In this document: piece by piece, positions 1 through 63,130 of the stretch
Position numbering within the stretch: position 1 is the first letter of the stretch
Layout of the letters: each line of letters starts with the position of its first letter
NCBI GenBank assembly: GCA_036323355.1
Contig: AP028876.1
Coordinates: forward strand, 2,790,001-2,854,000
Length of the DNA: 64,000 nucleotides
Direction: 5' to 3'
DNA from: Gottschalkiaceae bacterium SANA
GTDB taxonomy: Bacteria > Bacillota > Clostridia > Tissierellales > GPF-1
The notes under the pieces: model-generated
What the model saw: the letters and a program-made list of their open reading frames with translations, nothing else
Databases searched by the model: none
What the model was told of the DNA's origin: nothing
Made by a program: the position numbers and the translations under genes

Positions 1-55
1 GTTCAAATTTACATCTATTGCAATTTTACCCATAATAAAAAGAAAAATTACGCAT

Positions 56-84
56 AAAAAAAAGAAATGCTTACGCATTTCTTC
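56..84 (-). terminator. Intrinsic terminator overlapping the end of the 96-aa membrane gene
   Basis: An 8-bp stem (63-70 with 75-82, loop TTAC) is followed on the minus strand by a run of eight T (63 down to 56). The stop codon of the upstream gene lies in the loop. Confidence 0.75.
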
Positions 85-361
85 TCCGAAATTCCACAAT
101 GCCTATAATCACTGTACAGATGGCAATTCCAATCCCAGTATCTTTGGTATCCCAATTCCTAGAAAACAAATCCAGCCAAGTAAAAAGGATCATGCTTCCG
201 CCAACAATCAAGGCATCCGCGCCCATTCGTTTCGACAAACGAGACTGCTTTTTAACCTCACCTTTATGATTGACTGAATGTACATGAACCAGATTAGATT
301 GTAGTAAAACAAATCCCACCAGTGCCAAAATAATTCCAATCATTAATAACAATTCTTGCAT
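71..361 (-). CDS. Small three-helix membrane protein, function unknown
   Basis: A 96-aa protein that I do not recognise at family level. It has hydrophobic segments at about residues 3-21, 50-66 and 76-90, and a short polar, basic loop between the first two, so it is probably an integral membrane protein with three helices. The start has a GGGAGT-type ribosome site just upstream. The gene is followed by its own terminator and stands apart from the operon to its right, which ends in a separate terminator at 472-504. It could be a DUF3784-like protein, but the similarity is only general. Confidence 0.6.
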   Translation of the reverse strand: MQELLLMIGIILALVGFVLLQSNLVHVHSVNHKGEVKKQSRLSKRMGADALIVGGSMILFTWLDLFSRNWDTKDTGIGIAICTVIIGIVEFRRRNA

Positions 362-471
362 AAAGGACTCCCTTCTTACCGTCTTTGCTTTATTTTATCG
401 GAAATTTATCTCAAAACGATGAAGAGAGTGTTTCAGTTTCTACGAAGTTTTCTTACAGTTTTGACTTTTTT

Positions 472-504
472 CAAAAAAAAGAGAAGGGAGAAATTCTCCC
501 TTCT
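472..504 (-). terminator. Intrinsic terminator of the dga-like operon
   Basis: A near-perfect inverted repeat (AGAAGGGAGAA at 482-492 against 494-504) is followed on the minus strand by a run of eight T. It lies just beyond the dgaF stop and closes the operon. Confidence 0.85.
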
Positions 505-517
505 GCAAGAAAAGGAT

Positions 518-1270
518 CTAGAGGAGTCTTTCCAAAACCTCATAGATCTTGCGGACTTGATCAACCTGAGTCATCCCGGTTTCTTTATTCATCACTGATC
601 CGTAAACATGAGGCATCACATAGGGAACCCCTGCATCTAGACAGACCTGTAAAATTTCTTCAAAGTTCTGAGGGGTGATTCCACCGGTCGGCTCAATTAA
701 TTGAATACCCTGGCGTACACATGCCTCTGCCACTGCCTTTAGCTCTTCAATTGATTTCAGGCCTCCCATAGGAAAGAACTTCACCGAATCGGCTTCCATA
801 TCCTTGATCATGGCCATTGCCGTATCAACATCAACCAAGGCTTCTGATTTTTCCACACTGTTTTTCCCAGTATTGATTTTCACCTTCCCCGGAATGCCAG
901 TTGGGGCCATCATGACATTAATGGCAGTTTCATTGGAACCCTTTGCTCGAAGCGCGCCCGATGCAAAGCCTGCCCCTGTAAAGGGTTGGTTGACGTGACC
1001 CGGATTGGTTTGGCAAGCAATCAAAGCAGCTTTCACCGCTTGAGCTGGATCACCCCCGCCCATACCTACCGATACGGAAGGAAGTTCCTTCAACCATTCA
1101 TTAACGCATTCGACGCCTTCTTCAACTGTATCAAATTGCTTGGACAAAATGCCCACCAAAGCGTGGCCTTCCATGGCTGCTATCACTTCCTTTGCGTTTT
1201 CCAAGTCTCCCGCAAGGTAATTGACCGCAACTCGATCCTTCATAAAATTTATTTTTTGTAAGCGATTCAT
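518..1270 (-). CDS. dgaF: 2-dehydro-3-deoxy-phosphogluconate aldolase, DgaF type
   Basis: 250 aa, a (beta/alpha)8-type protein of the KDGP aldolase family seen in the Enterococcus EF_0839 cluster and in Salmonella dgaF. The expected reaction is cleavage of 2-keto-3-deoxy-6-phosphogluconate to pyruvate and glyceraldehyde 3-phosphate. The motif VKFFPMGG, with Lys164 as likely Schiff-base lysine, and the later IEPTGGITPQN loop fit a class I aldolase. It is the last gene of the operon and starts 3 nt after the ammonia lyase stop, so the two are probably translationally coupled. The pairing gives the order elimination then aldol cleavage. Family assignment is strong; the true substrate of this cluster is inferred. 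Confidence 0.85.
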   Translation of the reverse strand: MNRLQKINFMKDRVAVNYLAGDLENAKEVIAAMEGHALVGILSKQFDTVEEGVECVNEWLKELPSVSVGMGGGDPAQAVKAALIACQTNPGHVNQPFTGAGFASGALRAKGSNETAINVMMAPTGIPGKVKINTGKNSVEKSEALVDVDTAMAMIKDMEADSVKFFPMGGLKSIEELKAVAEACVRQGIQLIEPTGGITPQNFEEILQVCLDAGVPYVMPHVYGSVMNKETGMTQVDQVRKIYEVLERLL

Positions 1271-1273
1271 GTC

Positions 1274-2386
1274 TTACTTCCTTTCTAAACAGCCTGAAAT
1301 CACAGCAGTAATTTTCCGAAGATCCGATTCCTTAACCGATCGCAAATCGAAGGTCAATACACCGGTGTTGACGTAATGCTCTCGAATATAAACCGCCGGG
1401 TCTGCCTCCTTCATGCGAGCAACCAAGTCTGCCGCACTTATGCCAACAACCCGATCATCCACCTTTGCAGTCGTTCTAAAAATTGCACGACCTGCTTCAT
1501 CCTGAACAACGCCGGCTTTAAATCCTGGCAAAGCATTCAATTCAACAGCCAGACTTTCCGCCCATGCCTTCATGGTTTCAATCTCTTGTGTTGTTCGCTC
1601 TTCTTTATAATCCGCCAGAGCCGTAAGAAGCCCCATGATATTTTCTTTTCCAATTTTCATAGCTCGCCCAATTCCTAAATATTGCAAATGACAAGCCTGA
1701 ATCCATTCTCGTTTTCCCGTTATAAATCCAGAAGTTGGTCCTTCAATGGCTTTTGATCCACTATAGATCACCATGTCAGCGCCCGCTTGGCCATACTTGG
1801 ACAAATTTTCTTCTGCCGCCGCGTCCACGATCAACGGTAAATTATGCGCATGGGCAATCTCTGCCATGACTTCCACTGAAAGCATACCCTTTTGCACACA
1901 ATGGTGCGACTTGACATAAAAAAGTGCTGCTGTTCGTTCATTAATTGACGCAACTACATGTTCTGCAGCGACCTTATTTGCTTGCCCTGCTAAAATCGGC
2001 TTTCCTCCGCCTACACGAATCATCGTTTCAATGGGTGCACCAAAGTTAACCGCATGTCCCTTTTGTAAAACAATTTCATTTTTAAATCCATCTAATACCT
2101 GAGGAAGGCTTTCAATCTGTAACAGGTTTTCCTTTGCAATGGTTGCCGCCACCGAGATGGCAATCCCAGCAGATGCGCAGGCTGTTGGACAACTTGCTTC
2201 CGCCCCGGTAAACTTGCTTATTTCTTGATCCGCATACTTCATTAATTCATGCAATACAACAAAATTTTGTCCAGCCGAAGCCATAGCTTCGAGGGTTGCA
2301 GCGCGAGGGGTTGAAACCCCTAGCGCCGTCATTCTGCCACTTGCATTAATAATCTCTTTTAATCCCTTACTCTTATAAAGATTCAC
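1274..2386 (-). CDS. dgaE: DgaE-family PLP-dependent ammonia lyase (SelA-like fold)
   Basis: About 370 aa, related to SelA but belonging to the DgaE/D-glucosaminate-6-phosphate ammonia lyase group. Expected chemistry is PLP-dependent elimination of ammonia from a 2-amino-2-deoxy sugar acid phosphate to the 2-keto-3-deoxy product used by DgaF. The PLP lysine is Lys214 in the SGSKAIEGP motif and the cofactor aspartate is Asp190 in LIVDAAAEEN (numbered from the ATG at 2392). Two starts are possible: ATG at 2392 directly abuts the AGAGGG site, while the in-frame GTG at 2386 lies 6 nt from it and gives the start expected for the family (MNLYK), so I chose the GTG. It is not selenocysteine synthase: no selenocysteine genes are nearby and the neighbours are sugar-acid genes. 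Confidence 0.85.
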   Translation of the reverse strand: MNLYKSKGLKEIINASGRMTALGVSTPRAATLEAMASAGQNFVVLHELMKYADQEISKFTGAEASCPTACASAGIAISVAATIAKENLLQIESLPQVLDGFKNEIVLQKGHAVNFGAPIETMIRVGGGKPILAGQANKVAAEHVVASINERTAALFYVKSHHCVQKGMLSVEVMAEIAHAHNLPLIVDAAAEENLSKYGQAGADMVIYSGSKAIEGPTSGFITGKREWIQACHLQYLGIGRAMKIGKENIMGLLTALADYKEERTTQEIETMKAWAESLAVELNALPGFKAGVVQDEAGRAIFRTTAKVDDRVVGISAADLVARMKEADPAVYIREHYVNTGVLTFDLRSVKESDLRKITAVISGCLERK

Positions 2387-2414
2387 ATGCATCCCTCTTT
2401 CGTTTGATTTACCT

Positions 2415-3062
2415 TTACATAAAAGCGAATACGCCGGCCAACAACATCGCGCCTAAAATTGCACCACCTGCGATTGGACGATCTTTGCTATAAGCAATCG
2501 CAGCTCCAACAAATGCACCAATGCCTGCTGGAATACTGAACTGAATCGCAGAGATAATAATCAATGGCCCCAAGAAACGACCCGTCTTGTTTCCCGCACC
2601 CATCATGACATCGGTACCGCTTGCAGATAAACCTTCAGGCATCGCTTTTCGAACGCCAATGATCAAAAGGCCTAAGGCAATGCCGATTCCAGCGCCTGTA
2701 AGCAAAGACAAGGCAAAGTTATTCAAAGGTGCAGTAATTCCTGCCGCTAATAGCATAGCAGGGATTCCGATCCCAACACCAGTCATCAATGATCCGCCAA
2801 TATCCAAGATCCCAACCAATGGACCTTCTAAAATTCGTGCGAGCAGGAAGCCTGTTGCAAATCCAGCTGCGGCTGCATAATCCCCTGTCGCCAAACCTTC
2901 ATCTAGCATTTGAACAACAAAGATTTCGTTGAATGCGCCTGTTCCATAAACGATATACAAATGTGTTCCCGCAAAGATCGATGCGCAGGCCAAGGCCATC
3001 AAAAGAGGGAAGGTCTTGTTGGCAAGCAATAGTGATTTTAAATTTTTGTTTGTTGTTTCCAT
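2415..3062 (-). CDS. DUF4310 family membrane protein (EF_0832/0833-type)
   Basis: A 215-aa highly hydrophobic protein with about six predicted helices, rich in Gly and Ala (for example residues 60-115 and 160-215). It belongs to the pair of conserved membrane proteins always found together in EF_0829-EF_0839-type clusters (DUF4310 and DUF4311). No transport family motif that I know is visible. It lies between DUF4311 and the ammonia lyase with an 18-nt gap and a good GGAGG site. The likely role, by context only, is the membrane part of the transporter that feeds this pathway. Confidence 0.8.
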   Translation of the reverse strand: METTNKNLKSLLLANKTFPLLMALACASIFAGTHLYIVYGTGAFNEIFVVQMLDEGLATGDYAAAAGFATGFLLARILEGPLVGILDIGGSLMTGVGIGIPAMLLAAGITAPLNNFALSLLTGAGIGIALGLLIIGVRKAMPEGLSASGTDVMMGAGNKTGRFLGPLIIISAIQFSIPAGIGAFVGAAIAYSKDRPIAGGAILGAMLLAGVFAFM

Positions 3063-3080
3063 TTGATTTTCCTCCTTCTT

Positions 3081-3794
3081 CTATAGACCCAGTTTCGCAA
3101 AGAAACCACGGAAGTACGCAATAATGACGAACAATGCAATGATAATGCCCAACATCACTTTCACAGCTTTGTTGAATCCTTTTTCTTCAATCGATTGACC
3201 AATCAAGATGCCTAGAACCAATCCAGGAACCGCGTTGCCCATAATCATTTGACCTGTACCGCCTAGAATGGTCGCCCATACGCCCGTTTTCTTACCTGCA
3301 TCCAAAGCTGCTAACCAAAAGATAATCGGCATTACAGGATTGATCATCAGACTTGCTGCAGGAGACAGAATCTCTTTGGCAATAAGTGACAGCTGTTCAG
3401 GAATTACTGATGCCAAGGTGTTCAAGAAGGTTACTACAACCGCTCCTGCAACCGCTCCAGTCACGATCATCTTCGATGGATCATACAAGGTTTCCTCAAC
3501 CGACTTGTTTTTTAACAAAAGTGCGCCAGCAGCGAAATTTGGTACAATTCGATGGAACACGTCTTGTGTCAAGGCTCCAGTTGCAACGGCTGCTGCTGCT
3601 GCATTGAAGAAAAAGCCCATACCAAATGAAAAATGTGCAATTGGATCGCCCTTGCAGGCATTTAGTTCACCAAGGGTACGAAACGCCCCCATGGCTTGAG
3701 ATTCCGGCGAATGAAACATTCTCGCCGCGCCGGCTGCAATAGCGCCACCGCCAAGCAGACCAATGATGATTGATTTGATAATAAGTCCAGTCAC
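3081..3794 (-). CDS. DUF4311 family membrane protein (partner of DUF4310)
   Basis: A 237-aa membrane protein with about six helices. An N-terminal hydrophobic Gly/Ala segment is followed by a conserved polar stretch (residues about 28-52, FHSPESQAMGAFRTLGELNA) that looks like a cytoplasmic or re-entrant loop. Translation starts at GTG 3794, seven nt after GGAGG. It is the second membrane component of the cluster; pairing with DUF4310 recalls the two membrane subunits (IIC and IID) of mannose-type PTS transporters, but I see no sequence motif that proves such a relation. Function unknown. Confidence 0.8.
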   Translation of the reverse strand: MTGLIIKSIIIGLLGGGAIAAGAARMFHSPESQAMGAFRTLGELNACKGDPIAHFSFGMGFFFNAAAAAVATGALTQDVFHRIVPNFAAGALLLKNKSVEETLYDPSKMIVTGAVAGAVVVTFLNTLASVIPEQLSLIAKEILSPAASLMINPVMPIIFWLAALDAGKKTGVWATILGGTGQMIMGNAVPGLVLGILIGQSIEEKGFNKAVKVMLGIIIALFVIIAYFRGFFAKLGL

Positions 3795-3807
3795 AATACT
3801 TCCTCCT

Positions 3808-4089
3808 CTAAGGATTAATAAATTTCAACCGGGTAAGAATTCTTACCTTCAGTTGGACCTGGGTTTTCACCTTCGGCATAAAAATAAACAGGAATTTTTC
3901 TGTCGTCTCCACGATATTTTCTTCCAGAATTTCCACTTCCATGGGTTCCATTTGAAGGATTAGTGCTTGGTCGAGTTGTTTGTATGCTTCCTTTTTAAAT
4001 TTAGCAAAGGCGTTGCCGAGCGCATCTTTTCTAGATTCGCCACTGGCAGCAAGTAAGATCTCCGCAGTCTTCTCTTGCAAACAATTCAT
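3808..4089 (-). CDS. DUF4312 family small soluble protein
   Basis: A 93-aa acidic, soluble protein of the DUF4312 (EF_0831-type) family. It has an N-terminal helical half with a small Lys/Arg-containing segment, then a beta-rich second half ending in a mixed FIFMPKVKTQVQLKVRIL strand region. No cysteine, histidine or metal motif stands out that would mark an EIIA or EIIB phosphorylation site. It starts 20 nt after the SFCGS gene stop with a GGAGGAG site. By constant association it is expected to be a soluble component of the putative transporter or an accessory subunit; this is inference. Confidence 0.8.
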   Translation of the reverse strand: MNCLQEKTAEILLAASGESRKDALGNAFAKFKKEAYKQLDQALILQMEPMEVEILEENIVETTEKFLFIFMPKVKTQVQLKVRILTRLKFINP

Positions 4090-4109
4090 TCTCTCTCCTC
4101 CTTTTTTGC

Positions 4110-4466
4110 TTATCGAGCCAGGTAGGCTTTCACCAATGCCTCGCCCAATTCCTCTATATCCATAAAGCCAAACCCCACAACTTCATAGCCTTCCTTCACG
4201 GCCGTTACGCCCGCTTCCACACTACGTAGATGGTGCTTCACTTTATATCCATACTTATTGGCAGCCATTAAAGCACCGGCACCGCCAGATCCACAAAACG
4301 AAATTCCTAGATCCGCTTGATGCTCTTGCATGGCATCGCCAAGTTTCATATCTGCTGCCATACCTTTGATAACAATCGCTTTGCCGCCAGCTTTTTCGAT
4401 GCCCAAGGCTACTTTCTGTCCCTTGCCCAATCGATGCCCAATGACAATCGTAATTTGCTTATCCAT
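4110..4466 (-). CDS. SFCGS-family glycine-rich protein, possible RpiB/LacAB-like fold
   Basis: 118 aa. It carries the family signature ISFCGSGGAGALMAANK around residues 55-71, with Cys58 in the motif. I note a parallel with ribose-5-phosphate isomerase B / LacA-LacB proteins, whose active-site loop reads CGTGxGxxxAANK with a catalytic Cys, and whose C-terminus reads VLAFGxRxxG followed by an amphipathic helix; here the matching part is VVGFGFMDIEELGEALVKAY. This suggests a phosphosugar-binding or isomerase-like fold, but it is a visual match only. The gene starts 2 nt after the PRD gene stop, with its AAAGGAG site inside the preceding gene end, so the two are probably coupled. Confidence 0.8.
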   Translation of the reverse strand: MDKQITIVIGHRLGKGQKVALGIEKAGGKAIVIKGMAADMKLGDAMQEHQADLGISFCGSGGAGALMAANKYGYKVKHHLRSVEAGVTAVKEGYEVVGFGFMDIEELGEALVKAYLAR

Positions 4467-4468
4467 GT

Positions 4469-4807
4469 TTACTCCTTTCTCAACGCCATTTCATAATGGG
4501 TTGAAACCAATAAAACTTCCGAGCGATGTTTCGCTCCTTCCTTTGAAAATGCTTCAACAATTTCTTGTGCCAACTGAATCGCGGCGGGCGAAACCTCTTC
4601 AAAGAGGCTTTCATCCATCTCCGCTACCCATTCTTCATCTCGGGCTCGACGGATCAATGAAATCATATGAGACAAAAATCCCAGTCTGAAATGATCCTTC
4701 CATATAATTCCTTGTTTCTCTGTAAAAATCAGCACCTTGCTCGCAATTTCCTTTTCGTCTGGTGTCAGCTCTAGACGCTCTTCTATTTCTCTAATGATTT
4801 CTGGCAC
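4469..4807 (-). CDS. Small PRD domain protein (EF_0829 type)
   Basis: About 112 aa, essentially one PTS regulation domain (PRD), with conserved His residues at HFRLGFLSHM and near the end (THYEMAL). Such domains are phosphorylated by PTS proteins in BglG/LicR-type regulators; here it stands alone without a DNA- or RNA-binding domain. The longest frame begins with GTG 4822, but GTG 4807 lies 6 nt after a strong GGGAGGG site and is chosen. The gene overlaps the end of the amidohydrolase by 25 nt (40 nt from the longer start). Role inferred: a phosphorylation-state sensor or partner for the operon regulator or transporter. Confidence 0.75.
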   Translation of the reverse strand: MPEIIREIEERLELTPDEKEIASKVLIFTEKQGIIWKDHFRLGFLSHMISLIRRARDEEWVAEMDESLFEEVSPAAIQLAQEIVEAFSKEGAKHRSEVLLVSTHYEMALRKE

Positions 4808-5931
4808 CGATATCCCTCCCACTTTGTCACTTCTCCATCTATAATGGACCAGATTTTTGCAAATCTCTCTTTTCCTTCTCGTTGAACGCCAACACTATCC
4901 GTCCAATCGGTCTGACTATATTCTCTAGAATAGGCCGTCATTTTTGCCTTCCCACCAATTTCAAATCGCCCATACCCTTTCAGTTTAAATACTTCTGCAG
5001 GTGCTTCGGTCACTCGATCAATCACATCCTCCACCGACATGCCAATTTGAATCATCTTGTCCATGACGTTAGAAAGAGAAATCACAGGACCGTCCATATT
5101 CTTCTCGTAGAGATCCGTGCTGATAAAATCAGCAATAAATCCCTTTGATTGTGCTCGTTCAGCAATTTCAAAACTAAAACTTGCCGATCCATGCCCAACA
5201 TCGAACATAACACCTCGTTCCTTGGCGGCGAGTGCCGAAGAAATCAGGTTTCCTTCAAAATCAAATAAGCCGTTGGGCTTGTTGTGAAAACAATGGGTAA
5301 TCACATCGCCATCATCCAATAAAGCCAATACCTCTTCTACCTTTGGTGGCTGATTTCCGATATGCACAACCAGGGGCAACTTTAAATCCTTTGCAATGAC
5401 TTTAGCCCGCCTGATTGGTTCAATACCCTGATCACCGACAACACTTCCACTGGCCCTGGCTTTGATTCCAACGATTAAGTCAGGATACTTTGCAACAGCC
5501 TTGCGAATGGCATCTTCATCAATCCACTCTGGGTTTGACCCCTCATCCAATCGCTGAAGTCCAATTCGAGAGATGTTCAATAGAATCTTCACATCCGTAT
5601 TCGACGTCTTTATCATTTTTTCCACATAATCATCCAGTTGATCCGTTCCCACGGTACCCGCATCAAATACGATGGGGCTTCCCCGCAAGATTCCCACCTG
5701 ATCCGGATTCAATCCAATTACCGTTCCCATTGGATTGGCATGGACGTGAATATCAATCCAGCCCGGTGTTAGCGTCATTCCGGGCAAGGCGACCACTTGT
5801 TCGCCTTCAATCGGATTCAAGTGTTTTTCAATCGCTAGAATTCGTCCGTTTGCAACTCGAATTTCCGCATGTTCATATTCTTGTCTGCCCGGATGATAAA
5901 TTCGCTCCGGACACAAACGTATACTTTTCAT
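4783..5931 (-). CDS. Amidohydrolase/deacetylase, EF_0837 type
   Basis: About 382 aa, a metal-dependent amidohydrolase of the dihydroorotase/N-acetylglucosamine-6-phosphate deacetylase superfamily. Visible metal-site residues, numbered from ATG 5931, are His62 and His64 (GWIDIHVHA), the probable carboxylated Lys157 (VGIKARASG), His190 (LVVHIG), His213 (ITHCFH) and Asp273 (STDLY). The expected reaction is hydrolysis of an amide, probably removal of an N-acyl group before the DgaE-like lyase needs a free amine. The longer frame starts at TTG 5949 inside the regulator gene; ATG 5931, seven nt after AGGTG, is preferred and leaves a 10-nt gap to the regulator stop. Confidence 0.8.
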   Translation of the reverse strand: MKSIRLCPERIYHPGRQEYEHAEIRVANGRILAIEKHLNPIEGEQVVALPGMTLTPGWIDIHVHANPMGTVIGLNPDQVGILRGSPIVFDAGTVGTDQLDDYVEKMIKTSNTDVKILLNISRIGLQRLDEGSNPEWIDEDAIRKAVAKYPDLIVGIKARASGSVVGDQGIEPIRRAKVIAKDLKLPLVVHIGNQPPKVEEVLALLDDGDVITHCFHNKPNGLFDFEGNLISSALAAKERGVMFDVGHGSASFSFEIAERAQSKGFIADFISTDLYEKNMDGPVISLSNVMDKMIQIGMSVEDVIDRVTEAPAEVFKLKGYGRFEIGGKAKMTAYSREYSQTDWTDSVGVQREGKERFAKIWSIIDGEVTKWEGYRCQKSLEK

Positions 5932-5941
5932 CTCTTTCACC

Positions 5942-7819
5942 TCACACAATATAACGCATTACCGCCACCACTTCATCGCTAGGAACCACTAAATCATAGG
6001 TTTGACCGATTCGAAACAAGGTGTTTTCAACCTTTTTATACAAGTTAGGGTGTTGGGACTGATAGCGATCCAAATCACCTTCCGACACATAGTCTCCGTA
6101 GATCCATCTTGGAATCGACAAAATGATATGCAAGGTCAGTCCCCATAGATTTTGCCTCTCCAGGGTAATGCCCTCTTCATCAGCAAGCTTCATCATCATT
6201 TCTCCAAATTCAACAACAGCCATACCCGTCAAATGAGCAAAATCTTCCAATCCATCCCGTTGAATACCTGGAATTTCCTTTTGACCCTGCTGACTTGCCA
6301 ATTGCTTACGAACACGATCACCCGCCACACTTCTTTTGGTTTCTTTCAAGGATTGAAAGCCATATAAGTGACTATGGATCATCCCCAATTCCTCATTAGA
6401 AATCACTGGACTGACCAGCAAATAAGGAATTGTAATTTCCAAATGCACCGTCGAAACCACAAAATCCAAAATGCCAAACTGCGAGAGGTTTTCCTCCGCC
6501 TCAAAAGCCGAGGTTGGACCTACAATCTCAATATGAGGCAAATTGTTGCGGATCCGCTTCTCTAATAGCTTGGCTGCACCCTTGCCACTGCTACATACAA
6601 TCAGGATCTTGCGTGACTCACCCTCTTTTCTTTTTTCCGTATTCTCACAAAGATACATGGTGAGAAAGCCAACCTCATCTTCATTAAGCGGAATATGAAA
6701 ATATTCTTCGAATACTTTTGACATCTTTTCAGCAATGGCATAGAGCGAGGCATACTGTTTTCGTATTTCATCCAACAAATAGTTTTTACTCTCAATCTGT
6801 AATTGTGACTTTTCCAACGTTAGCTCCAAATGAAGAAGAAGTTCCTCTTTTAAATGGAGTAAGGCCTCGTCTTCCAATTGTAATTCCAATGAAGCGATTC
6901 GTAACATTTCATATACGGTATCAATCAATTTGGGGTCAAAAACTCGACGTCCTTTAATTTCAAATACGGTACAATTATTCTTTAACAGAACCCGCTCCAA
7001 TCTATGGATTTCTTGAATCGGTACCTCTAAGTCAAGCCATGAAGACAATCCTCTTAAAATACCCTCAGCCATAAGATGCAGCGACTGATTTAGGCTGTTT
7101 TTTTCACTTATCGTTTCACTCACATAATGAGAGCGTTTCATGCTTTGAAGGGATAAAAATATAAAGGATGCAATAAACTGGAATTGCTCTTGCGGAATCC
7201 AAATGGCATATTCCTTCTTGGTCACGGAGATTCGCTTGCGAATTTCTCGAAATAAGGGCTCGACATCGTCAAAGGGCAAAATCTCTCTCACCTCGCCATA
7301 GGTTTGATCTTTCAGGCTCTCAGCTAAGTACAATGCCGCAAAGATTCGTTTATCCGTTTCCTTTCCTTCTAATCGATATCCATATCGCGCCCGACTAATT
7401 AATTCCAATCCTTCAAGTTTTGCTTGGTCTTTCAATTCTTTTAATGTAGAAACAATGGTAGATCGGCTAACGCCCACTTCTTCCGCTAAAAACTCCGTCG
7501 TTATAAATTTCTCTGCGATAAACAATTGAATCACCACAAGCAATCGACGAGCTTTTGAGGAATAATTTCGATAGTCTTGATCCGGACTTTGAGAAATTAG
7601 TCTTTTCGCCGCTTCCTTCTTCTCAATCCAGACCCCAACCCTGGGCTTGGAATGAATTTCCGCTCCAACTTTCCTGAGCCAATAATTCATTTCTTTGATG
7701 TCATATCGAATGGTACGGATTGAAACCTGTAATTGATCCGCTAAATTCTGTACCACCATGGGAGCATCTTCTCTCAATAAGATCTTTAGAATTCCAACTT
7801 GCCTTTCCTTTAATTCCAT
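5942..7819 (-). CDS. PRD-containing transcription activator with EIIB-like domain (LicR/MtlR type)
   Basis: 625 aa. Order: N-terminal winged HTH (about 5-60), second Mga-type HTH (about 95-155), two PRD-like regions (about 200-395), an EIIB-like domain with the phosphorylatable Cys409 (ILIVCSSGKGAAKLLE), and a C-terminal PRD/EIIA-like part (about 490-625). This is the layout of DNA-binding PTS-controlled activators such as MtlR, LicR and ManR, not of the short RNA-binding antiterminators. It is the first gene of the operon, with GGAGGA four nt before ATG, and is likely to control its own operon according to phosphorylation by the transport system. No RNA antiterminator site is visible before it. 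Confidence 0.85.
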   Translation of the reverse strand: MELKERQVGILKILLREDAPMVVQNLADQLQVSIRTIRYDIKEMNYWLRKVGAEIHSKPRVGVWIEKKEAAKRLISQSPDQDYRNYSSKARRLLVVIQLFIAEKFITTEFLAEEVGVSRSTIVSTLKELKDQAKLEGLELISRARYGYRLEGKETDKRIFAALYLAESLKDQTYGEVREILPFDDVEPLFREIRKRISVTKKEYAIWIPQEQFQFIASFIFLSLQSMKRSHYVSETISEKNSLNQSLHLMAEGILRGLSSWLDLEVPIQEIHRLERVLLKNNCTVFEIKGRRVFDPKLIDTVYEMLRIASLELQLEDEALLHLKEELLLHLELTLEKSQLQIESKNYLLDEIRKQYASLYAIAEKMSKVFEEYFHIPLNEDEVGFLTMYLCENTEKRKEGESRKILIVCSSGKGAAKLLEKRIRNNLPHIEIVGPTSAFEAEENLSQFGILDFVVSTVHLEITIPYLLVSPVISNEELGMIHSHLYGFQSLKETKRSVAGDRVRKQLASQQGQKEIPGIQRDGLEDFAHLTGMAVVEFGEMMMKLADEEGITLERQNLWGLTLHIILSIPRWIYGDYVSEGDLDRYQSQHPNLYKKVENTLFRIGQTYDLVVPSDEVVAVMRYIV

Positions 7820-7838
7820 TGTTTCCTCCTACTTGCAT

Positions 7839-7868
7839 TCTATACGCTTTTTTAATCATGCAAAACAA
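7839..7868 (-). promoter_or_regulatory. Probable sigma-A promoter of the dga-like operon
   Basis: Minus-strand -35 TTGTTT (7868-7863), 18-nt spacer and -10 TATAGA (7844-7839), just upstream of the regulator gene. Upstream at 7885-7906 an interrupted TATCGT/ACGATA inverted repeat may be an activator site. Confidence 0.5.
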
Positions 7869-7912
7869 CAAAGTCTTTCCCTTTATATCGTGCAATTTTA
7901 TACGATAAGTCT

Positions 7913-7948
7913 ATCAAAAAAAGAGATCCCTCTCAACAGGACCTCTTT
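7913..7948 (-). terminator. Terminator downstream of the DUF362 gene
   Basis: AAAGAGATCC at 7920-7929 pairs with GGACCTCTTT at 7939-7948 with one mismatch. A T run follows on the minus strand. Confidence 0.7.
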
Positions 7949-8030
7949 CAAATTATCTAACTTGCAGGATTTATCTCTTTCTTGCAGTGCGTATCTGCAT
8001 GATTACCTTTTTACCTTAAACAGAACACTT

Positions 8031-8927
8031 TTATCGAAAGACTTCTTTCGCACATCGAAATTGCTTCATTTCAAAAGGATCTTCTGTAAAATTTGCCATA
8101 CACTGATGCGTCTTCTTCATTTCTAGCAAAACCTCATAGCCCACTAGATCTGTTTTCAACAAATCACTCCCCACGATCACACAATCACCACATTCAACCC
8201 GCCCCTCATTGGGACCACCTTCAATAAAGACCTTCCGCCCATCCAAGAATATCAAATCTGGCTGAACCGCTGCCGCTATCTCAACAATTTTCTCATGTAA
8301 ATTTTCTTGATGCAGTTCAATTCGCTGCAAAGGATGCATAAATCCAACAGCCAAGTTCATGCTTAAAGAAAAATCAGCATGCCGATGAGTTTTCAAATTT
8401 GCCAGATAAATGATTTTATCGACTTGATCGACCAATCTAGGCACCACCAGATCGGATAAAAATGAGAATTTGCCATTAATCCGAACCCATTCCAACTCGT
8501 TAAAACAAGCATACTCCACCTGATCGCCAAAGCGTGAATAGACCCCTGCTTCCTTCATCAGCTTGCGGGTTGGTAATTCCCCATTGGACGTACAATCTCC
8601 AAGGATAATTCGATGGATCCCGCGTTTCTTTAACTGATTAACAAGCCACTCAAGCATGTCAAGATCTGTAGAAGCCGGATACGGATTGGCTGAATGATAA
8701 TTCACTTTAATCAAGACTCGATCATGAACATGAAATCCTCGAAAAATAACCCCTTTAACAGGCTCCATTTTTCGATCAATTTCATCCAAATCAACGCCAT
8801 TAAACCGACGGGTTGATGTTCCCTTCACGCGGCGAATCCGAGGAGTAATCTTTCCAGAGACCTCCAGATCCTTTATGCCTTTAGGACCAAGGACTCGTTT
8901 TATTCTATACATAAAACTATTCATCAT
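8031..8927 (-). CDS. DUF362 domain-containing protein
   Basis: 298 aa, matching the DUF362 family in its central part (DRVLIKVNYH near residue 72, a LGDCTSNGE segment, then KIIYLANLKTHRHADFSLSM with the conserved Lys-Thr-His and Ser-x-Asn pattern, and FLDGRKVFIEGGP near the end). Family members are of unknown biochemical role; some are fused to ferredoxin domains, but no 4Fe-4S Cys motif is present here. ATG 8927 is 6 nt after AAGGAG. It is a single-gene transcription unit with a long leader (8928-9143) and its own terminator. Confidence 0.75.
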   Translation of the reverse strand: MMNSFMYRIKRVLGPKGIKDLEVSGKITPRIRRVKGTSTRRFNGVDLDEIDRKMEPVKGVIFRGFHVHDRVLIKVNYHSANPYPASTDLDMLEWLVNQLKKRGIHRIILGDCTSNGELPTRKLMKEAGVYSRFGDQVEYACFNELEWVRINGKFSFLSDLVVPRLVDQVDKIIYLANLKTHRHADFSLSMNLAVGFMHPLQRIELHQENLHEKIVEIAAAVQPDLIFLDGRKVFIEGGPNEGRVECGDCVIVGSDLLKTDLVGYEVLLEMKKTHQCMANFTEDPFEMKQFRCAKEVFR

Positions 8928-9143
8928 CGAAAACTCCTTATCTAGCTTGTACCTATCGGTCCGTCCCGTTCGAAATACTCTTCCTCACACAGAATTCATT
9001 TGATCTTACCCTGACAAATTAGATTTCAGTTTCCCTCTCTTTTTCACCTACCGTTCTAAAACGAAAAGGGTGAAAACACCACTTTTATACAGTCTAATTA
9101 CCCATTCCGACCATTAGAGTAACGAGTCTCTGCTGCTAAACCA
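8928..9143 (-). other. Long leader/intergenic region upstream of DUF362, content unidentified
   Basis: About 215 bp between the Dabb terminator and DUF362. I see a possible -10 element (TGTATAAAAG on the minus strand near 9085) and a run of short inverted repeats, but no riboswitch class that I recognise and no open frame with a good ribosome site. Confidence 0.3.
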
Positions 9144-9173
9144 CAAAAAAACTCAAAGGATTTCTCCTTTGAG
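9144..9173 (-). terminator. Terminator of the nrdJ-dut-Dabb operon
   Basis: Perfect 9-bp stem CTCAAAGGA (9152-9160) with TCCTTTGAG (9165-9173), loop TTTC. Seven T follow on the minus strand. Confidence 0.9.
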
Positions 9174-9191
9174 CCTTTCCAATCATTTTAT

Positions 9192-9491
9192 TTAAACTTC
9201 GTAGTCAACAACAACACGAGCCATGGCAATTGTCTTAATAAATCCACCTACGGCTTGATGTTTCGGATGAACCTGATATGCGTCCAAGTCTTCTTTTGAG
9301 TCGAAACTTGTTTCTAAAACTATGTCATAAGCCATATCGGAAACATTGTCATTCAGCCCAACTGCAATGACTTTGAGCTCTTCGATCTGGCCCTGAAGTG
9401 CCATCAGTCTTGCCTTCATTTCTTTCATGTTCTCTTCCTTGCTTCTTTCATGACTTGCCTTGATTTTCCACATTACCAAATGACGTACCAT
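9192..9491 (-). CDS. Dabb family stress-responsive alpha/beta-barrel protein
   Basis: 99 aa. It begins MVRHLVMWKIK and shows the Dabb pattern: first strand with HxVxxK-type start, helix, second strand KVIAVGLNDN, then YDIVLETSFDSKEDLDAYQVHPKHQAV, the typical region with aspartate, tyrosine and His-Pro. These small ferredoxin-like dimers are stress-associated or catalytic in a few cases; function here is unknown. The open frame reaches back into dut, but GGAGG at 9497-9501 is 5 nt before ATG 9491 (2 nt before ATG 9494), so the short form is correct. It follows dut after an attenuator-like hairpin. Confidence 0.85.
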   Translation of the reverse strand: MVRHLVMWKIKASHERSKEENMKEMKARLMALQGQIEELKVIAVGLNDNVSDMAYDIVLETSFDSKEDLDAYQVHPKHQAVGGFIKTIAMARVVVDYEV

Positions 9492-9507
9492 CATTTCCTC
9501 CTTATTC

Positions 9508-9531
9508 AAAAGACGGCGCTTCCGCGCCGCC
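9508..9531 (-). terminator. Hairpin with T run between dut and the Dabb gene (attenuator)
   Basis: Minus-strand GGCGGCGC-GGAA-GCGCCGTC, an 8-bp GC-rich stem with one G-T pair and a GNRA loop, followed by TTTT. It probably lowers read-through into the Dabb gene. Confidence 0.7.
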
Positions 9532-9534
9532 ATT

Positions 9535-9996
9535 TTATTTTGTACCTGTCGATCCCATGCCACCTGCGCGTTCAGAATCCGTATTTCCATTGTCAGCAAC
9601 CAGGAAGGATATAAACAGCCCTTGGGCAATTCGTTCTCCCGCTTCAATTATAACCGCTTCCTCGCGGCAATTAAACAAAGCGATTCCAATATTACCATCA
9701 TTGGATGCATTCTCGTAATAATCCGCATCGATGATTCCCGTCCCGTTGGCCAATACCAAGCCACGCTTGATACCGATAGAAGAACGCACATACAATTTCA
9801 GTACTTCTCCCTCTTGCATATAGGACTTCACATCAGTCCAAACCACATAGACTTTCCCAGCGGGAACTGTAAAGGTCTCAGGTGCGTAGAAATCATAACC
9901 GGCGGCGATCTTAGATCCCCGTGTCGGCAATTGAATCTTCAAGTTGCCGAATTTTCTTGCGTCCTCTCGAACAACTTCAAAACCTCGTATCTTCAT
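9535..9996 (-). CDS. dut: dUTP diphosphatase (trimeric dUTPase family)
   Basis: About 153 aa. The five dUTPase motifs are visible in order: AAGYDFYAP (motif 1), RSSIGIKRGL (motif 2), GIIDADYYEN (motif 3), GERIAQGLF (motif 4) and the C-terminal Gly-rich RAGGMGSTG (motif 5). The enzyme hydrolyses dUTP to dUMP and pyrophosphate, keeping uracil out of DNA and feeding dTMP synthesis. ATG 9996 is preferred because GGGGG lies 4 nt before it; an upstream ATG at 10020 would overlap nrdJ. It follows nrdJ directly, which fits a deoxynucleotide supply operon. Motif 3 (IDADYYEN) is a variant of the usual form but keeps the Asp. Confidence 0.9.
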   Translation of the reverse strand: MKIRGFEVVREDARKFGNLKIQLPTRGSKIAAGYDFYAPETFTVPAGKVYVVWTDVKSYMQEGEVLKLYVRSSIGIKRGLVLANGTGIIDADYYENASNDGNIGIALFNCREEAVIIEAGERIAQGLFISFLVADNGNTDSERAGGMGSTGTK

Positions 9997-10004
9997 GGTT
10001 CCCC

Positions 10005-12356
10005 CTATCGAATCGGACATACGCCGGTATCACAGCCATCGCTTCCGATATCCAATTGCTGTTCATGCTTCTCGTATTTGCTGATCAAATTCGGAATAAA
10101 TGGTCGCATCTCTTCCACGCGACGTTGGTACTCATCCTTCTCGATCGACTCATATGGTAAAAGATCGTAAAAATTGTCATCCAATGATAAGAAGGACAAG
10201 GCAACAACCTCTTCCCAATGATCATAGACCCATTCTTCTACAAGATCCCACTCATGCTCTCGAACATGAACTGTAATCGAGCAATTGTGCTCCACGTAAG
10301 CATCCATAAAGAGCTTGTAGTTTTGCAATTGTTCCAAGGCGCTTACATCGTACTTGGTACGGCCTTCTGGTGCTTGAACCGGGAATTCAACCACTTTGGT
10401 TGAACAAGTTTTCCATTCTTGTCCCACTTCTGGGAATACGGGCCAGTCCAATTCTTCCGCAACCTTAGCCAATGGATCTGTCGCATTGATTCGCACACGA
10501 CGAATATAATATGGAGAATGAGAATAATGAACACCGCTAGAAACTGTCGGCAATTGCGAAAGTGTTCCTTCCGGTTTGACTGTTGTCACCAAAATAGGTG
10601 CGTTCTCACCCAATTCCTCAGCATAGTGTTCAGCCGCCTCATTAGCAGCAACTTTCAACTCACCCAACAAGATAGCTTGATCGTCGACCGTCATTCCTAC
10701 CGCATTGACCATATCTTGCCAGCCTGTAAGGGAGCATCCCACCAATTTATCTCTATTTTGAGTGGAGTCCCACATTGGCAATTCCAATTCCACGCATGTC
10801 ATTCGATATCCAGCCTTAGCAGAAAGTCGTTGTGCATCCAACAAACCTTCTCGGTCCAAACTGCCATCTGCCTGTACATATGCGAAGGTATTAATGGTTG
10901 TCAGGTTGCATAATCCACGGGTATCCAAAAGAATCTCGCCGCAAGGATTAACGCCATTGAAATTTGGACGTCGCTTTTCAGCCGCAATAGCGTTGACAAA
11001 TCCTGGTTCTCCGGAATAACGCATCTTTTCAATCTGCCAATGCCATTGCTCGCGGCTTGGCTTCTCACGATAGTAGATGGAGTTGTTGGACATTTGTCGG
11101 TGGATGATATCCTTGTCCACAATCCATTGTCCATCAATCTGCTTGTATAGATTGCTTTTTGCGTCAATGCATTCCGTATCATCAGAATCCACCAAGACGA
11201 TCTCTGCTGTTCGGCGAACACCGCCGACAACAACATTCTCACCAATGATATTGGCAATATCCAAGCAATCTATTGGCTTCAATTTTACACGCTTTGCACT
11301 ATGAATCACGCCGAGTTTCTTCATGACTCGATCGATTTTAAAGAACATATTTTTTAATGATTCATGACCCGATGCGGTTCCACCAAAGGTCTTTAATTTC
11401 TCACCCTTTGGACGAACATGATCGTAATTGATCACAATCGTTGTAATATCACGGTACTCATTGGAATACAAGACCTTGATATAATAATCTAAAGCCTGCG
11501 TCCATCCCTCTTTACTGTCGCCTACGGTAATTTTAACCGATGCATTGCGCGAGAAATGAAGGCTAGTTGAATCTTCTCGATCCGCCTTTGCTACCGGAGA
11601 ATAATCTTGATGAATCAACTCATAATCCGTTCGAACCTTAGGCAATTGCTTGACATCGTCCTTCAAAATTCGAACCCCAACACCAGCACCGACCATTAAT
11701 AGGTAAAACAAATCCTTAAATGCATCAAATCCATCAATGACTTCAAAGGCACAATTGTAATTGGAAATTGGATAATTCTGCGCAACCGGCGTTCCACCAA
11801 CCCAAAAGGTACGACCGGATAAAAATTGTCTCAAATGAAAAATATTATCAAATAGCCGTTCTGCTTCCGCTTTTGTAGTCGGCACAAGACCTGCATTGTA
11901 CTCAACCGCTCTTCGCACGGTTTCCCACCAATATTCCCGGCGGTTTTGATCCTGCAACCAACGAGAATAGGTGCGGTAATAAACAAAATTTCCCAATTGC
12001 TTCATTGGAGCAGGAAGATGCTTGTAACGGCTGACAAATTCATCTGTTAAAATTCGATCATCTGTCCGCTTCCTTGCATCCCTTGTTTTGTCTCGCTCAT
12101 ATCGATATAAAATATAGGCCTTAGCAACATCCTTGCGTGGCGAATCCATCAGATAGTTTTCGACCCAATCTTGAACTTCCTCAACTTGCATGGGAATACG
12201 TGAATCGCTAGCTGCTTGTCCAATCAGCTCTGCAATCTTCTGACTAAGCAGGTGATCTACACCATCCTTGGTCGCTTTCATCGCATTCTCAATGGCGCGA
12301 ACGATCTTTTCGAGATTGAATTCTACCAGTCTCCCGTCGCGTTTTGATACTTTCAT
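10005..12356 (-). CDS. nrdJ: Adenosylcobalamin-dependent ribonucleoside-triphosphate reductase (class II)
   Basis: 783 aa. An N-terminal ATP-cone (about 1-95) precedes a monomeric class II reductase of the Lactobacillus RTPR type. Visible catalytic residues: Cys202 (NYNCAF) and Cys483 (GLCNLTT) as the substrate-reducing pair, the radical Cys472 and Glu474 in NPCGEILL, and the C-terminal redox pair Cys775/Cys780 (CDTGVC). It makes deoxynucleotides from NTPs with coenzyme B12, without oxygen. ATG is 7 nt after GGAGG. It is the first gene of nrdJ-dut-Dabb, and tandem NrdR boxes precede it. The ATP cone implies allosteric shut-off by dATP. Confidence 0.95.
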   Translation of the reverse strand: MKVSKRDGRLVEFNLEKIVRAIENAMKATKDGVDHLLSQKIAELIGQAASDSRIPMQVEEVQDWVENYLMDSPRKDVAKAYILYRYERDKTRDARKRTDDRILTDEFVSRYKHLPAPMKQLGNFVYYRTYSRWLQDQNRREYWWETVRRAVEYNAGLVPTTKAEAERLFDNIFHLRQFLSGRTFWVGGTPVAQNYPISNYNCAFEVIDGFDAFKDLFYLLMVGAGVGVRILKDDVKQLPKVRTDYELIHQDYSPVAKADREDSTSLHFSRNASVKITVGDSKEGWTQALDYYIKVLYSNEYRDITTIVINYDHVRPKGEKLKTFGGTASGHESLKNMFFKIDRVMKKLGVIHSAKRVKLKPIDCLDIANIIGENVVVGGVRRTAEIVLVDSDDTECIDAKSNLYKQIDGQWIVDKDIIHRQMSNNSIYYREKPSREQWHWQIEKMRYSGEPGFVNAIAAEKRRPNFNGVNPCGEILLDTRGLCNLTTINTFAYVQADGSLDREGLLDAQRLSAKAGYRMTCVELELPMWDSTQNRDKLVGCSLTGWQDMVNAVGMTVDDQAILLGELKVAANEAAEHYAEELGENAPILVTTVKPEGTLSQLPTVSSGVHYSHSPYYIRRVRINATDPLAKVAEELDWPVFPEVGQEWKTCSTKVVEFPVQAPEGRTKYDVSALEQLQNYKLFMDAYVEHNCSITVHVREHEWDLVEEWVYDHWEEVVALSFLSLDDNFYDLLPYESIEKDEYQRRVEEMRPFIPNLISKYEKHEQQLDIGSDGCDTGVCPIR

Positions 12357-34410: not shown

Positions 34411-34560
34411 AAAAAAAACCCCATAGGAAAGAGGTGTATTCCTCCTTCTAAGAGGTTTGCGCCTCCTCATCTTGCAACGTTACCGCTGCGGAATTAGCAC
34501 CTAAATAAATAGGTTGCTGGACTTCATCGGGCCGGTTCCCTCCATCTCTCTTGATAAGGT
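34411..34560 (-). ncRNA. SAM-I (S-box) riboswitch with terminator, upstream of metK
   Basis: On the minus strand, P1 CCTTATC (34559-34553) pairs with GATGAGG (34471-34465). The conserved core is AAGAGAGATGGAGGGA, then GGCCC(G)ATGAAGTCC-GCAACC, then GGTGCTAATTCC and AACGTTGC. The expression platform is a terminator: AAACCTC/GGGGTTT plus GAAGGAGG/CCTCTTTC (34415-34461), followed by T8 (34418-34411). SAM binding should favour the terminator. Confidence 0.95.
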
Positions 34561-63023: not shown

Positions 63024-63130
63024 AAAAAAGACCGCACAAGTTCCCTGTGCAGCCAGCCCTTCTTTCCATAAAGATGCCTTGCTTTGCGTCCTATCCTCAC
63101 AAATAGTTTGCCAATTCCATTTGTTAGTAA
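63024..63130 (-). ncRNA. c-di-GMP-I (GEMM) riboswitch with terminator
   Basis: On the minus strand: GGCAAAC (63112-63106), P2 CTATTT-GTGA-GGATAG with a GNRA tetraloop, then the core GGACGCAAAGC (about 63092-63082). An ATCTTT-ATGG-AAAGA hairpin follows, then GGCTGGCTGC. The expression platform is CTGCACA (63052-63046) / TGTGCGG (63038-63032), then TCTTTTTT. The regulated gene starts at 62964. The P1 5' strand was not fixed. Confidence 0.8.

Follow-up and report, generated by a model that had tools for sequence, protein, structure and literature searches.

In Salmonella, DgaABCD delivers D-glucosaminate-6-phosphate to the enzymes DgaE and DgaF (PMC9529869; this and all other papers are cited for a part of their text). 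N-Acetyl-D-glucosaminate (GlcNAc1A) is produced by chitin lytic polysaccharide monooxygenases (LPMOs) and consumed via the marine Ong pathway (PMC9537276; PMC12017989), where deacetylation and deamination come first and 2-keto-3-deoxygluconate (KDG) is phosphorylated after them (PMC9537276). The locus compared here with these systems is a nine-gene operon, minus strand, positions 518–7819 of a 64,000-nucleotide stretch of Gottschalkiaceae bacterium SANA (the window: contig AP028876.1, 2,790,001–2,854,000 of a 3.49 Mb one-contig genome, in which DUF4310 is present once). It is proposed, with a probability of about 0.52, that the operon serves the uptake and degradation of an N-acylated 2-amino-2-deoxy aldonic acid (N-acetyl-D-glucosaminate being the likeliest), with entry via an uncharacterised permease coupled to the phosphotransferase system (PTS).

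Layout and conservation of the operon

Genes of the operon (window coordinates, strand, product; supporting match):
518–1270, minus: DgaF-type 2-keto-3-deoxygluconate-6-phosphate aldolase (EF_0839 family); PF07071 E 2.7e-81, NF047796
1274–2392, minus: DgaE-family pyridoxal phosphate (PLP) ammonia-lyase; TIGR01437, NF047797
2415–3062, minus: DUF4310 membrane protein (EF_0833 family), candidate permease subunit; PF14187 E 1.7e-94
3081–3794, minus: DUF4311 membrane protein (EF_0832 family), candidate permease subunit; PF14188 E 5e-111
3808–4089, minus: DUF4312 small soluble protein (EF_0831 family); PF14189 E 2.9e-16
4110–4466, minus: SFCGS protein (Gly_rich_SFCGS, EF_0830 family), RpiB-like, candidate phosphoryl carrier or phosphosugar-binding subunit; PF14272 E 1.8e-56
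4469–4822, minus: lone PRD protein (EF_0829 family); TIGR03582 47.6 bits
4783–5934, minus: EF_0837-type amidohydrolase, candidate N-deacylase; NF006689, TIGR03583
5942–7819, minus: PTS-responsive regulator, HTH-Mga-PRD-EIIB-like-PRD-like; Pfam/NCBIfam matches, hhalign

In the proposed scheme, DUF4311 and DUF4310 would form the membrane channel of a permease replacing the EIIC/EIID pair of a PTS; the lone PRD (with its His), SFCGS (with its Cys) and DUF4312 would be its cytoplasmic partners, coupling it to Enzyme I (EI) and HPr, and by virtue of this coupling the cargo would arrive at the enzymes as the 6-phosphate. The amidohydrolase would take off the acyl group, presumably after the phosphorylation; DgaE would eliminate ammonia with formation of 2-keto-3-deoxygluconate-6-phosphate, DgaF would cleave the latter to pyruvate and glyceraldehyde-3-phosphate, and the PRD-EIIB regulator would sense the state of the PTS.

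The nine genes are consecutive and separated by 2–22 bases or overlapping; place, order and families were checked (coordinates, Pfam, NCBIfam) and are as an earlier note, made from the sequence alone, had described them. For the amidohydrolase the ATG at 5934 was adopted as start; the listed open reading frame (ORF) begins at TTG, 5949. The Pfam models of DUF4310, DUF4311, DUF4312 and SFCGS all score over cut-off, which makes the operon a member of the EF_0829-EF_0839 cassette; of the curated NCBIfam models, EF_0830, EF_0832, EF_0833 and EF_0839 are over and EF_0829 (TIGR03582; 47.6 bits, cut-off 69.35), EF_0831 (TIGR03578; 43.4 bits, cut-off 89.65) and EF_0837 under cut-off. DUF4312 has no hydrophobic segment by a simple scale.

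Relatives of DUF4310 were confirmed in genome contigs (485), and the best 80 were kept; the sample is thus the most similar sixth, by titles mostly Gammaproteobacteria. The 96 surveyed loci comprise the window, these 80, 12 stretches of other genomes and three plasmid records, with some overlap, and are not all independent (L104/L012, one contig; L111/L112, one genome; L102/L103, one genome; L106/L113, one genus). Among the 80 loci were found: DUF4311, 80; SFCGS, DUF4312 and DgaE, 79 each; lone PRD and amidohydrolase, 78 each; DgaF and regulator, 75 each. Absences in L012, L013, L018, L053 and L077, and that of the regulator in L088, are possibly due to contig ends; a contig end cannot account for the lack of DgaF in L041, L088 and L090, a single clade in the DgaE tree. 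A missing amidohydrolase in L024 and a missing PRD in L015 were wrong calls, both being fused ORFs: amidohydrolase with DgaE in L024 (a draft assembly, where a frameshift or lost stop could mimic fusion) and lone PRD with amidohydrolase in L015. The lone PRD and SFCGS are likewise one ORF (249 residues) in the one-contig genome G331. Within the phylum, DUF4311 and SFCGS score above cut-off in an identical set of 7/398 genomes. The linkage of the cassette is far beyond chance, and membrane module and enzymes, whose association the earlier note had proposed to survey, stand together almost always across the 80 loci.

The membrane pair was met without the enzymes in one case read: in genome G301 (L107), one of the seven with DUF4311 and SFCGS, a unit regulator-PRD-SFCGS-DUF4312-DUF4311-DUF4310 has no enzyme gene alongside. 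Another G301 contig encodes dgaE and dgaF with a GntR regulator, a PTS EIIC, a MupG-type protein, an amidohydrolase and, after dgaF, a PfkB-type gene whose likeness to KDG kinases stays below the NCBIfam cut-offs. The DUF4310 unit can thus stand apart from the enzymes, although both are present in this genome.

Catabolic enzymes, parallel dga locus and proposed cargo

Residue conservation was read from non-identical homologues of suitable length from the surveyed loci; YhfT-type loci were excluded from the cassette sets, and the DgaF set was unfiltered by locus. DgaF: NF047796, 333.6 bits, over the equivalog cut-off of 300; K164 kept in 86/86. DgaE: TIGR01437, 467 bits, over cut-off; K214, R306, R337, R351 and H164 each kept in 91/91, H163 in 90/91. 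The PLP lysine 214 and the aldolase lysine 164 named in advance from the sequence were accordingly confirmed. The window DgaE aligns to the Salmonella enzyme (7lc0) with E 9.7e-98; Salmonella R301/R332/R346 fall on R306/R337/R351 and H162/H163 on H163/H164. The three arginines were located near the 6-phosphate by manual docking (PMC9529869).

The amidohydrolase scores 378 bits with NF006689 (cut-off 371) and 377 bits with TIGR03583, under its cut-off of 432. Its metal site, predicted to be full, proved so: the binuclear-type ligands (HxH, Lys, His, His, Asp) H63, H65, K158, H191, H214 and D274 are present in 92/92 homologues. Six PDB sequences were matched, among them 8wzy, 2ics, 2ogj and 8je0; the OngB entries 9KB1 and 9KB3 (PMC12017989) are outside this match list, no direct comparison with them having been made. 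It is probable that the amidohydrolase is a deacylation step added relative to a Salmonella-type dga locus.

A gene for an HAD-type phosphatase directly follows dgaF in 8/96 loci (cluster c4; L109, 6049–6840, and seven others); the one member tested, from L106, is Hydrolase_3. Its function is possibly relief from sugar-phosphate stress.

The same genome has a second dga locus (L215; G000:C1:3298000-3317000, 3427–10735) of the order sigma54-PRD regulator, sorbose/mannose-family EIIB, EIIC, EIID, dgaE, dgaF; identity to the window copies is 45.8% for DgaE and 50.4% for DgaF. The layout is similar to that in Salmonella. No amidohydrolase ORF was seen within the 19-kb stretch, and no EIIA gene was recognised among flanking ORFs of 90 or more residues. 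Since EIIB-EIIC-EIID precede dgaE-dgaF there, DUF4310, DUF4311, DUF4312 and SFCGS of the window sit in the slot of a PTS permease. On this analogy the simplest reading would be that another importer takes up the same compound, D-glucosaminate, in N-acylated form. The choice of N-acetyl-D-glucosaminate as best guess rests on the name of the amidohydrolase family, deacetylase, and on the fact that an N-acyl substrate would explain both the amidohydrolase here and its absence beside EIIBCD.

A lactonase cluster follows dgaF in 20/96 loci; its N-termini are signal-peptide-like by eye, and the one member tested (L037) is PF10282. This fits an aldonic acid formed outside the cytoplasm. In a study of chitin use by two Aeromonas strains the GlcNAc1A route could not be confirmed (PMC11653859); the present cassette is carried by other Aeromonas species (L069, L072, L077). 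The host of the window need not encounter LPMO products.

An Enterococcus-type enzyme unit (L138, 8734–15446; L214, 3444–10875) consists of PTS EIIC, a protein of ca. 90–100 residues (no Pfam family in the one member tested), MupG-type protein, amidohydrolase, DgaE, DgaF and PfkB-type kinase. Its cargo may be a phosphorylated disaccharide with an amino-sugar acid as terminal residue.

Proposed PTS coupling and rival explanations

The regulator was predicted to be of the PRD/EIIB type and is so composed: HTH-Mga, PRD and an EIIB-like domain (hhalign to UlaB, probability 92%), followed by a further PRD-like C-terminus. Same-strand genes for HPr and/or EI adjoin the cassette in 6/96 loci: EI in L015; HPr in L017, L052 and L111; both in L109; an HPr-EI fusion in L139. 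The last is a Bartonella plasmid, whose whole record was covered; none of the genes listed there is an EII. The presence of a further Enzyme I would point to phosphoryl flux. HPr-like genes that lie close to the cassette on the opposite strand, in 12 loci and usually accompanied by an EIIA-like gene, were not counted as donors (L029, L037, L038, L040, L043, L049, L059, L061, L069, L072, L082, L089); we take them to resemble the rpoN-ptsN-npr region. Possession of a PTS was dropped as a distinguishing mark of carriers: EI and HPr were present in 12/12 carrier genomes tested but also in 7/14 controls.

The conserved residues of the candidate carriers are H52 (75/75) and H109 (73/75) of the lone PRD and C58 of SFCGS (72/72); the SFCGS alignment contains no conserved His. 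Both proteins are, judged by sequence, distant homologues of E. coli proteins, SFCGS of YhfU (DUF2620) and the lone PRD of YhfY. For SFCGS and YhfU: phmmer E 5.1e-6 (window SFCGS as query, ORFs of the surveyed loci); hhalign probability 79.6%, pairwise E 1.5e-5 over 106 columns; common Cys motif (72/72 and 14/14). For the lone PRD and YhfY: hhalign 97.3%. Separate family sets were used for these comparisons; first versions were dropped because the sets could contain members of the other family. DUF2620 and YhfT are above cut-off in an identical set of 11/398 genomes, and PRD, DUF2620 and YhfT are consecutive among recognised genes in 10/13 YhfT loci. Profile comparison gave no sequence relation of YhfT to DUF4310 or DUF4311, and YhfT as a fusion of the two was rejected for the same want of profile signal.

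From these data a bolder version of the scheme can be tentatively drawn, which we regard as rather doubtful: a second kind of PTS permease, in which the phosphoryl group would pass from HPr to His52 of the PRD, then to the Cys of the RpiB-like SFCGS and on to the substrate at a membrane pair other than EIIC/EIID, with YhfY-YhfU-YhfT as a second branch using another membrane protein. PRDs are so far known as regulatory targets of the PTS; if this version is true, the PRD would be a working phosphocarrier.

DUF4310 and DUF4311 are membrane proteins of several helices in which many polar residues are invariant; their AlphaFold models are of moderate confidence (pLDDT 76.8, pTM 0.61 and pLDDT 74.2, pTM 0.64, respectively). 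Whole-model fold comparison with 207 chains (DUF4310) and 61 chains (DUF4311) gave none with Z of 5 or more; the best values among the matches listed were Z 5.0 (rmsd 7.4 over 91) and Z 4.1 (rmsd 6.2 over 63), in the range that the tool calls common. A relation of DUF4310 to DUF4311 was rejected (profile comparison, no signal). Three below-cut-off DUF4311 matches outside the cassette were taken as chance: that in L099 is an ORF resembling an MFS transporter, that in L100 has the same profile coordinates, and that in L098 falls within a sigma54-type regulator gene in the wrong frame, interrupted by four stops. With 20 PTS query proteins of E. coli and E. faecalis, the examined flanks of the 80 loci yielded no match to an EIIC or EIID.

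The following data weigh against a PTS-coupled permease for an N-acylated amino-sugar acid. As to the membrane pair: Foldseek of both models against the PDB gave no match at E 0.001 or better; a profile search of PDB sequences found nothing for DUF4311 and 29 matches, all E 0.3 or worse, for DUF4310; a sequence kinship with EIIC/EIID was rejected, hhalign probability being at most 4.1% (queries: individual EII proteins from E. coli and E. faecalis, a set lacking galactitol EIIC); and a Pfam scan of the operon proteins gave no EII family. Since sequence and models match no EII, transporter or PDB fold, the transport role of the pair is argued from context only; the structural comparison called for in the earlier note thus gave no EII match, yet no non-transport family either. 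As to the coupling: no adjoining same-strand HPr or EI gene was found in 90/96 loci, the donor genes that do adjoin could serve the PRD regulator alone, and SFCGS resembles the sugar-phosphate isomerase RpiB, not EIIB. As to the enzymes: with NF047797 DgaE scores 423 bits, under the equivalog cut-off of 600, and the second copy, beside EIIBCD, 396 bits, likewise under; the three arginines may mark the whole family, because they are also aligned in a more distant member, 8t7j; and at the position of the carboxylate-binding R226 of Salmonella, 63 of 91 homologues have Lys, 27 have Arg and one has Asn. As to the gene context: the cassette in an E. faecalis record (strain IDRL-9065) contains PTS EIIC, a MupG-type protein and a PfkB sugar kinase, and in both E. 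faecalis and G301 the enzymes adjoin such genes, in G301 apart from the DUF4310 module. The statement that no EII gene is present consequently holds for the window operon and, with the queries named above, for the examined flanks of the 80 loci but fails for the E. faecalis operon.

The rival that survives best, though we consider it unlikely, takes DUF4310/DUF4311 as an ordinary non-phosphorylating (e.g., ion-driven) importer of sugar acids, with PRD, SFCGS and DUF4312 sensing or regulating and a cellular KDG kinase acting later as in the Ong pathway, which phosphorylates KDG last (PMC9537276). The scarcity of adjoining HPr/EI genes, the KDG-kinase-like PfkB gene after dgaF in G301 and the PfkB gene of the E. 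faecalis locus all agree with it; the phosphate-site arginines of DgaE (91/91), the failure of Pfam and NCBIfam to recognise a kinase in the window operon, the HPr/EI genes beside six cassettes and the position of the module, equal to that of EIIBCD in the same genome, speak against it.

A non-transporting module, acting as a PTS-dependent sensor or kinase while uptake proceeds via another permease, is improbable. DhaKLM offers the comparison for such a kinase, and the RpiB likeness of SFCGS and the lack of any transporter fold or EII family match for the membrane pair are in its favor; two multi-helix membrane proteins rich in invariant polar residues, with no other membrane-protein gene in the window operon, argue against it.

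Least probable of all, and hardly credible, is that SFCGS functions as an isomerase of the RpiB/LacAB type, with an aldose or ketose phosphate for cargo in place of an aldonic acid: the RpiB-family matches (E 2.5e-4 and 2.7e-4, both under cut-offs; PF02502, 21.5 vs 24.7 bits), the match of the SFCGS model to an ORF that is RpiB by eye (E 4.8e-4, under cut-off) and the hhalign probability of 75% over 32 columns with that ORF point to kinship, whereas RpiB uses a His, for which SFCGS has no conserved counterpart, and the Salmonella DgaE and DgaF act on an aldonate (PMC9529869).

The PTS-coupled permease is therefore retained as the preferred reading at the probability given above. Of the transporter and pathway suggested in the earlier note, an uncharacterised membrane module in the PTS permease slot, a link to the PTS and a route from an amino-sugar acid to pyruvate and triose phosphate stand, on the evidence of the EIIBCD locus L215, where no amidohydrolase was seen, of HPr/EI in 6/96 loci and of the DgaE arginines; transport, phosphorylation and substrate are what we infer from them.

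Setting of the operon and comparison with known systems

Flanking signals (window coordinates, strand):
482–504, minus: strong terminator-like hairpin, 10-pair stem with T-run, just past dgaF and closing the operon
7908–7936, minus: weak promoter-like site, 9/12 match, TG extension

Terminator-like sites in 1–8300 number 11 against a mean of 7.3 in shuffles; the promoter-like site was given no weight because there are 12 such sites against a shuffle mean of 15.0. Upstream of the operon (9192–12356) lie an overlapping Dabb-domain ORF, a dUTPase-like ORF and a B12-dependent-type ribonucleotide reductase; a SAM riboswitch (34464–34560) and a c-di-GMP-I riboswitch (63045–63122) are both on the minus strand of the window.

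In the literature searched, with subscription papers mostly outside the search, no paper naming DUF4310, DUF4311 or DUF4312 was found, nor one with two or more of the E. faecalis cassette locus tags, with two or more related terms or with any of the further accessions tried; among the matches listed for yhfT, yhfU and yhfY, no title or abstract start dealt with the function of these E. coli genes. Novelty of the cassette holds only as wide as this literature. DUF2620 is named in one paper, and the dgaEF duplication in E. faecalis is likewise in print (PMC7396535); in passages of PMC8262876 and PMC11633334, D-glucosaminate appears only in a reference and as a dga PTS of C. difficile.

If correct, the scheme would assign a function to four uncharacterised families of many Enterobacterales, Aeromonas, Enterococcus and various Clostridia, and would offer a handle on the unexplained YhfY-YhfU-YhfT of E. 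coli K-12. With N-acetyl-glucosaminate as cargo, the operon would parallel the oxidative chitin pathway described recently, with phosphorylation coming first.

E. coli yhfSTUVWXYZ (L101, 9936–17345) shares with the window operon the lone PRD (YhfY), the small Cys protein (YhfU) and a parallel operon architecture and, with weaker profile similarity, the PLP enzyme (YhfS to DgaE, 84.5%) and a phosphotriesterase-type protein (Php to the amidohydrolase, 69.7%); it differs in the membrane protein YhfT, unrelated by sequence to DUF4310/DUF4311, in extra racemase-like and mutase-like genes and in having no DgaF annotated. The cassette EF_0829-EF_0839/AHA_3910-3917 (TIGR03577-TIGR03583, hypothetical equivalogs) has the same proteins as the window operon; the latter differs from the E. 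faecalis EF_0829-EF_0839-type locus in being without EIIC, MupG-type protein and sugar kinase. The Ong pathway of marine Gammaproteobacteria resembles it in the predicted chemistry (deacetylation, deamination, KDG-6-phosphate) and differs in the D-aminoacylase-type OngB, the fold-type III OngC, the sodium symporter OngIT and the late phosphorylation (PMC9537276; PMC12017989). With Salmonella dgaABCDEF it has in common the DgaE and DgaF homologues, the PTS-linked regulation and the predicted products; the regulator is of the PRD-EIIB type, in contrast to the sigma54-type beside EIIBCD, and in place of the EII genes the window operon carries DUF4310, DUF4311, DUF4312, SFCGS and the lone PRD, with the amidohydrolase added.

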